This document shows, piece by piece, positions 11,875 to 16,444 of a stretch of 36,728 nucleotides of DNA. This DNA comes from Pirellulales bacterium. GTDB lineage: Bacteria > Planctomycetota > Planctomycetia > Pirellulales > UBA1268. The first letter of the stretch is position 1, and every line of letters begins with the position of its first letter. Under the pieces are notes generated by a model. It searched no databases and had not been told where the DNA came from. It worked only from the letters and a program-made list of their open reading frames with translations. Location of the stretch: positions 1 to 36,728 of the forward strand of contig JAQWMC010000026.1 of assembly GCA_029246985.1 (NCBI GenBank), in the 5' to 3' direction. The translations under genes were made by a program, and so were the position numbers.

Positions 11875-11891
11875 GTGGGCCCCGACCCCAT

Positions 11892-13136
11892 CTAGTTTGG
11901 TGAAAGATGCACTGTACGATCACAGATCAGCGCAAACGGATCACTTCCTGCTGAGGTCACGACCAGCGTCAATGCTCCCTTACAGACTTCCTTCAGGAGG
12001 TCTGCCATCGCATGCTGCTGCTGAGTGTTCATACCGTCGGCTGGTTCGTCAACGAGAAGAATCCGAGGATCCATGGCCAGGCCGCGCGCAATTTCCAAAC
12101 ATCGTTGCTCGTAACGTGTCAGATTTGAAGCAAACGAGAATGATTGATCGATCAGTCCCACAGACCGAATGAGATCTTCGGTCCGCTCAATACAGTTCGC
12201 TTTATTAACATGTGGCCACCATGATGAAGATTTTCGATAAACGCCCTGCTCTACTGCAACAAGTATATTTTCAAACACCGTCATCGCAGGAAAGTTTCTT
12301 GGAGATCGAAAGGTGCGGGCCACTCCAGCCCGAGCAGCAACCTCTGGCGAACGTCTCCCTCGCTGCCAGATTGCTAGCGACATTCCAATCCCAAGAAACA
12401 AACCACAAATAAAAGCAGACCAACCACGAAAACGAATTCGACGCTTTCCAGCTGCCAACCGGTCAAGAGTCGTTTCATCCAATAGTAGCTCGCGTTGCGG
12501 TTCATTCGCATCACCCACTAAATCGGTTATGTCGGGAACAACACCCGGACCAGTTCGCCGAGCAGTCACTGCTGCTTGCATTTGATTCCGTAATTCTTGG
12601 GCTTCCGACAGATCGCGACGTACTGCAAGAACTTCACGCCCGTCTGCAGTGACAATTCGCCAATTACCGGCAAGCCGGTCAACAGCCAGTTCCGCGCGAA
12701 AATAACTACGAAGTCGTCTCCCAAAAGTTGCTGGAGTAAATGGTTCATCAACTACAAGACCTCGCTTTACAACAGCCAGCCACAAACGATCGATGTCTAC
12801 CGCAGCTGCCGCACATAACAAACCAACAAGAATGCCTGTGAACAGTACACCCCAGAATGTTTTCACCGAGAACGCCTGTTTCAATCGACGCCCATCCAAT
12901 CGGACGGAACCGGAAAATGCAGGCCTTAGTCCACAGATAGCATCGAGCAAAGCAGCTTTCGATCCTCTTCCCGAATCTATAATGGCAACACTAGTGCCTG
13001 CCGACACATCGAGTTCTAATTCATCGATGAGCGGTATCCCACCTGATTGAACCGTAAGCCGATCAATACTCAGAAGCGGAATGTCTGCTGAGAGGACAGG
13101 GCCGTCGCTCGCTTTCATATTCTCTCCATGAGTCAT
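11892..13136 (-). CDS. LivG-like ABC ATPase domain with two-TM insertion and degenerate catalytic motifs (putative pseudo-ATPase)
   Basis: LivG-type N-half (LLSIDRLTVQSGGIPLIDELELDVSAGTSVAIIDSGRGSKAALLDAICGLRPAFSGSVRLDGRRL) and C-half (ARTFRSPRNFPAMTVFENILVAVEQG...LTRYEQRCLEIARGLAMDPRILLVDEPADGMN) are separated by ~180 aa with two hydrophobic helices (FWGVLFTGILVGLLCAAAAV; WSAFICGLFLGIGMSLAIW). Same operon orientation as LivM/LivH/LivK. Confidence 0.85.
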   Translation of the reverse strand: MTHGENMKASDGPVLSADIPLLSIDRLTVQSGGIPLIDELELDVSAGTSVAIIDSGRGSKAALLDAICGLRPAFSGSVRLDGRRLKQAFSVKTFWGVLFTGILVGLLCAAAAVDIDRLWLAVVKRGLVVDEPFTPATFGRRLRSYFRAELAVDRLAGNWRIVTADGREVLAVRRDLSEAQELRNQMQAAVTARRTGPGVVPDITDLVGDANEPQRELLLDETTLDRLAAGKRRIRFRGWSAFICGLFLGIGMSLAIWQRGRRSPEVAARAGVARTFRSPRNFPAMTVFENILVAVEQGVYRKSSSWWPHVNKANCIERTEDLIRSVGLIDQSFSFASNLTRYEQRCLEIARGLAMDPRILLVDEPADGMNTQQQHAMADLLKEVCKGALTLVVTSAGSDPFALICDRTVHLSPN

Positions 13137-14215
13137 TGCTGTGACTCCTGAAGCTCAGCGGCGAAACGTCGTGACGGAATGAGTCCTACGGGACGGAATC
13201 GCATCACAACGATTAATGCGATGCCTACAAGAGCTAATCGCCAACTTCCAAGTGTAAAAAAACTTACATCAAATACCTGCTCCTGAATACGCTGCATCCA
13301 GGAATCAACCCACGGGATAACAACTATGTCAAAACCAAACAAGATTGTGACGCCGACAAGTGTTCCTGAAATACTCCCAAGGCCACCTATTATGACTGCA
13401 CAAAGAATCGCAACTGATCGATTAAAACCAAACGCATTGGGATCTCCAGTCGTACCGATGCTTGCGACAGACAGGCAGCCAGCAAGTCCGGCTATCCCTG
13501 CTGCTATTGTGAAGGCCGAAAGCCGAACTTTCGTTGCAGAAATACCTATTGTCGCAGCCGCGAGTGGCTCCTCACGAACAGCAATCCAGGCCCGGCCAAG
13601 CGTTGATTTTTCAAGAACTCGCACAAGCAGCACCACAACAAAAAGTACAATGAGCGACAGGTAGTAGAACCATCGTGAATCAACAACGAACTCTCTACCG
13701 AGATCTATCCCCGTAACAAATATTCCAGATCCTGGGGGTGGAATCGGACCAAGCCCCTGTGTCCCACCTGTTACATTTTCTAGATTCAGAAATAAGACAC
13801 GAACGACTTCACCAAAACCAAGAGTAACAATAGCAAGGTACTCGCCTCGAAGACGCAAGGTTGGCGAGCCGAGCAGCGTCCCTATTGCGGCGGTCACACT
13901 AACACTGACAAAAACCGCTGGGAGAAAACCTATCTCCAAGGGATTCATCGGGACAGTGAGAATCGCAAGAAAGAGACCTCCCAAGCCAAAAAAGGATGCA
14001 ATTCCTAGATGGAGTAATCCCGTGAAGCCAACCATAACGTTGAGCCCAAGAGCCGCTATGCAAATTATTAAGACTGATGTTATCTGTCCGCCCAGCCCTC
14101 CAGCCAATGCCGGATGAAACCATGGCGCCAGGGCCAGAATTGTAAAAACTGGTATTTCCCAATTTTTTTTTGACCATTTCATGAGACAAGATAAGGAGGC
14201 ACATTGAATGTTCAT
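13133..14215 (-). CDS. livM: Branched-chain amino-acid-type ABC transporter permease (LivM-like)
   Basis: ALGLNVMVGFTGLLHLGIASFFGLGG, REEPLAAATIGISATKVRLSAFTIAAGIAGLAGCL, GGLGSISGTLVG. Start taken as ATG 14215 (MNIQCASLSC), which overlaps the livH stop as ATGA; the track start at 14311 overlaps livH by 100 nt. 4-nt overlap with the downstream ABC gene. Confidence 0.9.
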   Translation of the reverse strand: MNIQCASLSCLMKWSKKNWEIPVFTILALAPWFHPALAGGLGGQITSVLIICIAALGLNVMVGFTGLLHLGIASFFGLGGLFLAILTVPMNPLEIGFLPAVFVSVSVTAAIGTLLGSPTLRLRGEYLAIVTLGFGEVVRVLFLNLENVTGGTQGLGPIPPPGSGIFVTGIDLGREFVVDSRWFYYLSLIVLFVVVLLVRVLEKSTLGRAWIAVREEPLAAATIGISATKVRLSAFTIAAGIAGLAGCLSVASIGTTGDPNAFGFNRSVAILCAVIIGGLGSISGTLVGVTILFGFDIVVIPWVDSWMQRIQEQVFDVSFFTLGSWRLALVGIALIVVMRFRPVGLIPSRRFAAELQESQQ

Positions 14216-15129
14216 CGCTGTCCTCCTCTCGTCTTTGACTTCCCAAAAATTCCTTGTGGGCGAAAAGCAAGAAAAATAATCAGTACAAGAAAAACCGATG
14301 CGATAGCCCAACGAGGGCCGAGAAGGGCTACCGAAATCGCACGAATTAATCCAACTATAAGCCCACCAACTAGTGCACCAGGAACACTCCCTATACCTCC
14401 AAGCACTGCTGCAGTAAGCGCGTACAACCCCATCTGATGCCCCATCTGATAGTTAATCGTCGTTGCGTGAACACCTGCGGCAACACTCGCAACACCACCG
14501 AGAAATCCGCTTATAAAAAACGCAGCAATAACAAGTTTCCCTGCTTCCCCCGAACGAGCTGTCGCACGGGTGATTGCAGCAATGGAACGCAACGATCTTC
14601 CGAAACGGGTTTGACGAAAAAGAAGGTACAGGCAGAGAACGGGTGGCACGATGATGACAAGGACCAGAAGATCAGCCATCGCAATAGAAAATCCACCAAC
14701 TGAACGCGTAGATTCGAGAAAAATCTCAGGAAATGCACGATCAGTCGGACCGATCCAAATAAGCCCCACATTCATGAGTACAAACGAAACACCGATTGTT
14801 GAAACGAGGGGGGATAGAGGAGGGGCATTTCGCAGCGGACGATAGACAAACTGATCAATGCAAACGTTCAGGCAGCCACAAAACAGTCCACTGCACGTAG
14901 CAGCCAAAACCACTACAAGGCAACCAGTCAGCGGATCGACCGGAAGTGGCACAAGGAATGATAAGATTGCCAGTGACAAGCAGCCACCGAGCATGACTAC
15001 ATCCCCATGGGCAAAGTGGATGAGGCCTACGGTTCCGTACACCAACGTATATCCGACAGCAATTAGCCCAAGAAAACCACCACTTGTGATTCCGATACCA
15101 CATTGCTCAAGAAAGGATGCTACGTCCAC
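14212..15129 (-). CDS. livH: Branched-chain amino-acid-type ABC transporter permease (LivH-like)
   Basis: GLIAVGYTLVYGTVGLIHFAHGDVVMLGG, STIGVSFVLMNVGLIWIG, TAAVLGGIGSVPGALVGGLIVGLI are typical LivH features. Confidence 0.9.
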   Translation of the reverse strand: MDVASFLEQCGIGITSGGFLGLIAVGYTLVYGTVGLIHFAHGDVVMLGGCLSLAILSFLVPLPVDPLTGCLVVVLAATCSGLFCGCLNVCIDQFVYRPLRNAPPLSPLVSTIGVSFVLMNVGLIWIGPTDRAFPEIFLESTRSVGGFSIAMADLLVLVIIVPPVLCLYLLFRQTRFGRSLRSIAAITRATARSGEAGKLVIAAFFISGFLGGVASVAAGVHATTINYQMGHQMGLYALTAAVLGGIGSVPGALVGGLIVGLIRAISVALLGPRWAIASVFLVLIIFLAFRPQGIFGKSKTRGGQR

Positions 15130-15178: not shown

Positions 15179-16444
15179 TTATCTGCTGCCGTCCTTTTTG
15201 CCTATGTCAGCAGTCGACATGACTTCCTCATGCACAAACTTGCCATCCCGAACAACACTTACAGACACCTCCTGAAGTGTTGTATCCCCATTTGCATCAA
15301 TACTCCATTGCCCAAGCACACCATCGTCCACCTGGCTCGCAAAAGCCGATTCTACGATGGCTCGACGATCTTTCTGGCCAACATCTGCAATAGCTCGAAT
15401 CACGAGCCTCGCCGCCTCGTAACCGTGAATTGCCCCGTTGCTTGGACATGTTCCATATTTCTGCCGATAGCGAAGAAATAATAATTTCTCATCGCAATCT
15501 GCTTGCTGTGGTGAAAGCCCTGCAGATGTGGCGAAACACCGACCCTCGAGAGAAGCTGCGCCTGCAGCTTCAAGAAAAGCTTCGGTGCGACATCCATCAG
15601 AAACCAACAGAATTGCCTCGCTCTCAGCTGACACAAGATCACGTGCGAGTTGCCCACCTTTGGTTCGAGCACTACCACCAAAGTAGATAAGGTCTGGATC
15701 AGCACTCATGACGGACCCTACAAAGGATTTGAACTCCGCTGCTTGGGGATCAATCGAGACGTGGTCGAGAACCGTCATGCCTTGCTCACGACACCGATCA
15801 GCAAATAAAGATGCTACACCTCGCCCATAAACACCGGCATCATCAATGACAAAAACACGACGCACCCCACGCTCGAATGCCCAATCTGCGGCAAGTGGAC
15901 CTTGAAGGTCATCGGCAGGCACAACTCGGATGTAGTTTAATCTGCCAGACGGTCGGTAAACGTTCGGCTCGCCAGGAAGACCAAGGCCCGGTTTGGTCAA
16001 CCCAACGGCGGTATTCGCTGGAGATACCATCAACAAATCTGCATAGTTAAGAATGGGCATGGAGACTCGGGCTGCTCCTGAGTTCAAGGTACCAATGTAA
16101 GCCATTACATCCGGATCCTGAACCGCCATACGAGCGTTGGCTGCCTCCCCTTCACTTGTCCACCGGCCAGACGCTGCTGCACTATTATCAAGATCACGAT
16201 ATTCCAAAGTAAACCGCCCGGCTTTTTCTTTCACCTCATCAATTGCGAGCCGAATACCTCGAACAACCTCATCACTGACCTGCCTAGACACACCTGTACG
16301 CGGCAAGCTCGAAACAAGACACACTCGATTGGATTCTATTTTTTGACAGCCGAAAGAATTTAGTCCAATCGTCAGACAAACTACGATGCTCCATATCAGC
16401 CGAAACGATGCTGGCTTTTGCGGATAAAACCAAATACGTCTCAT
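15179..16444 (-). CDS. Periplasmic substrate-binding protein (LivK-like, receptor ligand-binding type 1 fold)
   Basis: N-terminal signal ending ...GLNSFGCQK (possible lipobox), VVRGIRLAIDEVKEKAGRFTLEYRDLDNSAAASGRW, ADPDLIYFGGSARTKGGQLARDLV, NGAIHGYEAARLVIRAIADVG. Confidence 0.88.
   Translation of the reverse strand: MRRIWFYPQKPASFRLIWSIVVCLTIGLNSFGCQKIESNRVCLVSSLPRTGVSRQVSDEVVRGIRLAIDEVKEKAGRFTLEYRDLDNSAAASGRWTSEGEAANARMAVQDPDVMAYIGTLNSGAARVSMPILNYADLLMVSPANTAVGLTKPGLGLPGEPNVYRPSGRLNYIRVVPADDLQGPLAADWAFERGVRRVFVIDDAGVYGRGVASLFADRCREQGMTVLDHVSIDPQAAEFKSFVGSVMSADPDLIYFGGSARTKGGQLARDLVSAESEAILLVSDGCRTEAFLEAAGAASLEGRCFATSAGLSPQQADCDEKLLFLRYRQKYGTCPSNGAIHGYEAARLVIRAIADVGQKDRRAIVESAFASQVDDGVLGQWSIDANGDTTLQEVSVSVVRDGKFVHEEVMSTADIGKKDGSR

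Follow-up and report, generated by a model that had tools for sequence, protein, structure and literature searches.

A LivG-type nucleotide-binding subunit with a membrane hairpin and degenerate ATP-site motifs in a putatively motorless Liv importer of Pirellulales

Organisation of the liv locus

We analysed a 36,728 nucleotide stretch of a Pirellulales genome (contig JAQWMC010000026.1, hereafter the window), in which livK, livH and livM lie upstream of a LivG-derived gene, livG*, within one operon on the minus strand. Plus-strand translation across 11892..13136 is full of stops. livG* and livM share a 4-nt overlap. The mechanical livM ORF is longer, with a TTG start at 14311 inside livH, while the ATG at 14215 gives a 4-nt livM/livH overlap. 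The convergent recQ gene lies downstream, 17 bp beyond the livG* stop.

15179..16444, minus strand: livK, substrate-binding protein with a likely lipobox (...LNSFGC), likely a lipoprotein
14212..15129, minus strand: livH, permease
14524..14601, minus strand: degenerate EAA-like coupling loop of LivH, one residue of which is deleted
13133..14215, minus strand: livM, permease; the ATG at 14215 agrees with relatives
13520..13597, minus strand: EAA-like coupling loop of LivM, conserved
11892..13136, minus strand (start at 13136): livG*, LivG-derived ORF of 414 amino acids encoding a degenerate nucleotide-binding domain (NBD) split by a two-TM insertion with an outside domain
11875..11891, no strand: 17 bp gap between the recQ and livG* stops, the site of livF in relatives, with no remnant here

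Relatives show the order rlmKL-livK-livH-livM-livG-livF-recQ, with livF between livG and recQ at the 14 loci that carry it. Loci of the window's genus have the same order minus livF in every member where the downstream side is covered, and no livF remnant was found there even in the longest gap (348 bp, G006). The genes next to the operon, rlmKL, carB and recQ, have housekeeping roles. At four loci of relatives (L049, L052, L053 and L054) another gene cluster lies between recQ and the 8353-like gene, a position at which it is absent from the window's genus; it comprises a permease-like protein starting MLWIAWKMLIGNRVKYLG, joined at some of these loci by an ABC NBD and by a third gene.

Degenerate ATP-site motifs in LivG*

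12948..12980, minus strand: degenerate Walker A, IDSGRGSKAAL, residues 53-63 (IGPNGAGKTT in relatives)
12801..12866, minus strand: TM helix 1 of the insertion, residues 91-112, an AlphaFold helix (hydropathy 2.33)
12426..12800, minus strand: outside domain, residues 113-237, predicted a-a-b-b-b-a
12363..12422, minus strand: TM helix 2, residues 239-258, inside a predicted 40-residue helix (221-260)
12306..12308, minus strand: Q-loop Gln replaced by Arg277 (ARTFR); Arg in 9 of the 9 genus members covered
12102..12122, minus strand: degenerate signature, LTRYEQR, residues 339-345 (LPYGDQR in relatives)
12042..12062, minus strand: Walker B, ILLVDEP, residues 359-365, kept in the window; Glu replaced by Asp in two sister species
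11940..11957, minus strand: H-loop region, TSAGSD, residues 394-399 (IEHHMN in relatives)

The four degenerate motifs and the intact Walker B that an earlier note had described can all be read directly in the 414-residue translation. Sequence comparison adds the A-loop aromatic Phe31, which is replaced in the genus, the D-loop, which is likewise lost, and a C-terminal tail of about 30 amino acids that is gone relative to relatives. We identified livG* in 9 of 10 genus species with an uninterrupted frame at identities down to 57-60%, and the motifs are degenerate in all copies where covered; the species without a match is represented by a genome that is 62% complete. The livG* copy of G004 is split across the ends of two contigs (L045 end, L046 start), an assembly break and not a gene break. 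Walker A is broken in every genus member, the closest to intact being G006 (GPGHTGKA), and the signature Tyr-Gly and H-loop Glu-His are gone from all members having livG*. The retained lysine and catalytic glutamate that the same note had described hold for the window and not throughout the genus: most sister species have Arg in place of Lys60, and two have Asp in place of the glutamate, so that motif loss goes beyond the window sequence alone.

The window protein scores above the gathering score of PF00005 (42.9 versus 25 bits), and ABC_tran is its sole Pfam match, in two stretches. The features of an active ATPase (Walker A, Q-loop, signature and H-loop) are all degenerate across the genus. 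Against the LivG family NF008449 (PRK11300) it reaches 87.1 bits, below the curated cut-off of 362, which the intact hairpin LivG of locus L074 also falls under at 299 bits. As regards the operon setting of a LivG, the LivK, LivH and LivM partners are present and the LivF partner is absent.

A membrane hairpin and outside domain within the NBD

The insertion comes after the strand that follows Walker A and before the strand of the Q-loop. Hydropathy peaks at residues 97-115 (2.33) and 238-256 (1.81), together with AlphaFold helices at 91-112 and 221-260, bear out two hydrophobic helices around a loop. The AlphaFold model of the window protein (39 sequences; pLDDT 87.9, pTM 0.77) shows a complete NBD fold, the C-half included, and in a Foldseek search both halves aligned to many ABC NBDs across the insertion over about 400 columns, with target TM-scores up to 0.83. 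The NBD-side flanks of the hairpin each carry a net charge of +4 (5 K/R, 1 D/E), as expected if the NBD is cytosolic and the loop outside; as had been proposed, the loop is thus predicted to lie outside, and in the model both NBD halves fold together.

The outside domain is modelled as two helices, three strands and one helix. It showed no relative by Pfam, PDB-sequence or PDB-fold search, the last of these being weakened by a poor stand-alone model (pLDDT 62). A profile of the insertion scores the window protein at 292 bits, this sequence being included in the profile. None of the 24 conserved outside-domain columns is lost in the genus, and 205 of 215 conserved cells are kept.

The insertion is older than the motif loss

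The insertion profile (186 positions) was searched in 197 genomes of the order and in a phylum sample of 392 genomes, matching 47 of the former, including 32 of the 36 family genomes, and 2 others in the latter. Whole-genome searches recovered full-length homologues with the same insertion from the family's other genera as well as from additional families of the order. Outside the genus the ATPase motifs are intact in every insertion-bearing genome with the motif region covered, reading GPNGAGKTT (Walker A), RTFQN (Q-loop), L(P/A)YG(D/Q)QR (signature) and IEH(H/E)M (H-loop). Among 29 further non-genus genomes Walker A is intact in all 29, LIEHHM is present in 27 and livF is adjacent in 26, with contig ends among the exceptions. 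Since the insertion occurs in relatives with intact, LivF-paired ATPases, these sequences indicate that it is ancestral, older than the motif loss and of separate origin. The two had been treated in the earlier note as one unit, and a single derived package is ruled out by the ancestral insertion. We found no LivG without the insertion at the family's liv locus: those insertion-negative family genomes that we checked also lack LivM, and the whole operon is missing from a few family genomes.

Other hairpin forms were seen further afield. Fimbriiglobus and Gemmata carry a shorter-looped hairpin with intact motifs, and another planctomycete carries a longer one. A short-form profile matched some 40 genomes, all from a single other family within the class, probably the Gemmataceae. 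In these proteins (L076, L077 and L203-L208) about 45 residues lie outside, and the motifs are intact in L076 and L077; the short-looped form seems to be part of a class-wide, undescribed subgroup of membrane-anchored LivG proteins. The hairpin LivG at L081:3160-4902 (the same protein as L184) has an outside part of about 270 amino acids in which several W-V-DG b-b-a units are discernible by eye; an HMM gave a single weak match and we do not claim tandem repeats. L074 (CAMBFA010000001.1), from a MAG titled Candidatus Kuenenia stuttgartiensis, encodes a hairpin LivG of the window-family type, and this genome is probably mislabelled or contaminated. The LivG of L061 (G038) has two extra hydrophobic stretches, near residues 294 and 326, in the C-half of the NBD, which are perhaps a second hairpin.

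Loss of livF and of the LivH coupling loop in one genus

In a tree of LivH, LivM and LivK all motorless loci fall on one branch (support 100/100, stem 0.82), which points to a single loss of the motor on the stem branch of the window's genus. Searches of the 10 genus genomes yielded no LivF orthologue at any other site, the best candidate reaching 33% identity and 125 bits versus 60-80% and at least 296 bits for true orthologues, and we found no second relative of LivG in the genus either. A LivF query gives 12-27 NBD matches per genus genome; at completeness of 62-95%, these genomes could still hold a distant, unrecognised NBD partner.

The permeases differ in what they retain. The LivH coupling loop reads AMRAVSQDPTAAALVGVDVDRV in relatives and SLRSIAAITRATARSG-EAGKL in the window, and every genus member has lost 7 of the 13 columns conserved in this loop, versus 22 of 123 in the rest of LivH (p=0.007). 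The LivM coupling loop keeps 84% of conserved cells in the genus. Each permease loop of an ABC importer provides the seat for one NBD; with the LivH loop lost and the LivM loop kept, LivF probably sat on LivH and departed with its seat, and LivG* would remain on LivM. These comparisons establish that the system descends from an ordinary LivKHMGF importer with the two-TM insertion already in its LivG, and that the genus shed livF, the ATP-site motifs of LivG and the LivH coupling loop while keeping the rest under purifying selection.

Selection on the outside domain and the NBD

Codon models on the close genus set gave an omega of 0.034 for the outside domain and 0.146 for the whole NBD (0.087 for the N-half, 0.179 for the C-half). 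A common omega within the genus is rejected (lnL about -3011.0 versus -2996.9; 2dlnL about 28, 1 df), and for the NBD an omega of 1 fits worse by about 109 lnL units and is likewise rejected. A wider eight-genome set gave 0.038 and 0.155, and the ranking flips in relatives whose motifs are intact, at 0.109 for the outside domain versus 0.070 for the NBD; synonymous sites are probably near saturation in the wider sets, so the close set bears the omega argument. Selection has shifted from the ATPase part to the outside domain in the genus. The other subunits are all under purifying selection (omega 0.067 for LivH, 0.116 for LivM, 0.084 for LivK).

These values, far below 1, and the open frames in nine species rule out sequencing error or recent decay, and they bear out the earlier note's view that this is not simple decay. 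That the operon is a decaying remnant heading for loss is highly improbable. livF, the LivG tail and all motifs except Walker B are indeed gone, and a few family genomes are without the whole operon; however, frames stay open in all members at the depth of divergence noted above, LivK, LivH and LivM are likewise constrained, and an omega of 0.15 for a dead ATPase and 0.034 for its outside domain is not that of decay, which is refuted at this depth.

A candidate ATP-independent complex

We put at about 0.6 the probability that LivG* is a catalytically dead, membrane-anchored NBD with a structural or regulatory role as one subunit of a LivK-LivH-LivM-LivG* complex that has no motor, a reading drawn from sequence and structural models. 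The motif losses, omega values and predicted fold support the earlier proposal of a non-hydrolysing, membrane-tethered NBD under purifying selection. In ABC transporters each ATP site pairs the Walker A of one NBD with the signature of its partner NBD; as LivG* is without both, no partner could complete either composite site, and ATP-driven transport by LivKHMG* would be very unlikely. The dead ATPase is nonetheless strongly preserved, so the former ATP-driven pump appears to work without its motor. On our preferred model LivG* would dock on LivM from the cytosol and act as a scaffold, its outside domain would be held beside LivK and the permease, and the complex may pass ligand passively by LivK-gated facilitated diffusion. 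The last step is the least certain, and counting against it a passive pore has no obvious need for an NBD fold. At roughly even odds, the importer has turned into an ATP-independent ligand-gated conduit or receptor in which the former ATPase is a membrane-spanning scaffold with a novel outside domain.

A receptor or sensor is a close second to the conduit, and a tentative one: ligand-loaded LivK would dock on LivHM and LivG*, and the hairpin and dead NBD would relay this state to the cytosol with no transport. Such a role would suit an outside domain under the strongest constraint, and an NBD fold and LivM coupling loop retained despite lost catalysis, but the operon contains no signalling gene, its neighbours are housekeeping genes, and the permease cores are conserved as in transporters. 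LivG* might instead have left the transporter, with a separate job for the outside domain and the NBD as carrier only. The outside domain being most constrained while the NBD motifs vary freely is what this would predict; we consider it unlikely given that the operon persists, with LivK, LivH and LivM conserved in all genus members that are covered, and that LivM retains its coupling loop. The idea that the complex is still an active pump, with an ATPase borrowed from another ABC system paired to LivG*, can draw on the many other NBDs in each genome and on the retained LivM loop. Broken Walker A and signature motifs would disable both composite sites with any partner, the LivH loop is lost, and the 10 genus genomes yielded no LivF orthologue, all of which makes it quite improbable; for the same reasons, together with the lack of a second LivG relative in our searches, the transporter "energised in trans" envisaged in the earlier note is unlikely.

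Relation to known ABC systems

LivG* resembles the LivG of LivFGHMJK branched-chain amino acid importers (NF008449; MJ1267, PDB 1G6H, is a relative of solved structure) in its NBD fold, its LivK, LivH and LivM partners and its sequence over both halves. It differs in the hairpin and outside domain before the Q-loop strand, in keeping only Walker B of the ATP-site motifs, in having no LivF and in the loss of about 30 C-terminal residues. The best-scoring NCBIfam family is UrtD of urea importers (TIGR03411), matched over the C-half at 94 bits versus a cut-off of 304, and otherwise the differences are those from LivG.

Solitary BioY, an ECF S component, reportedly occurs without an ATPase module (work attributed to Finkenwirth, 2013, and cited in PMC4820897). 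There, as in the Liv case, the membrane part of an ATP-driven importer persists without ATPases, although the fold is unrelated and no dead NBD is present. CFTR and SUR are ABC proteins that changed from pump to channel or regulator; unlike LivG* they are exporter-type and eukaryotic, keep at least one ATP site and have no NBD hairpin. Heterodimeric ABC exporters keep a degenerate nucleotide site within a working complex (PMC12038006, PMC4046567), but they retain one intact site whereas the LivG* complex can form none. Pairs with one dead site and ATPase-less ECF S components are thus already known; within open-licence papers we found no description of a hairpin-inserted NBD (hairpin LivG) or of a motorless Liv-type importer.

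The separate NBD subunits of ABC importers are highly conserved and, to our knowledge, strictly cytosolic. Here, in members of a whole bacterial class, one such subunit is interrupted by a membrane hairpin with an outside domain, and one genus then drops catalysis. With intact and motorless forms at the same locus in closely related genera, the parts needed for energy and those needed for structure are directly testable, as is the possibility that an importer of the binding-protein type turns into a channel or receptor. If true, this would be a bacterial, importer-side counterpart of the pump-to-channel change of CFTR.
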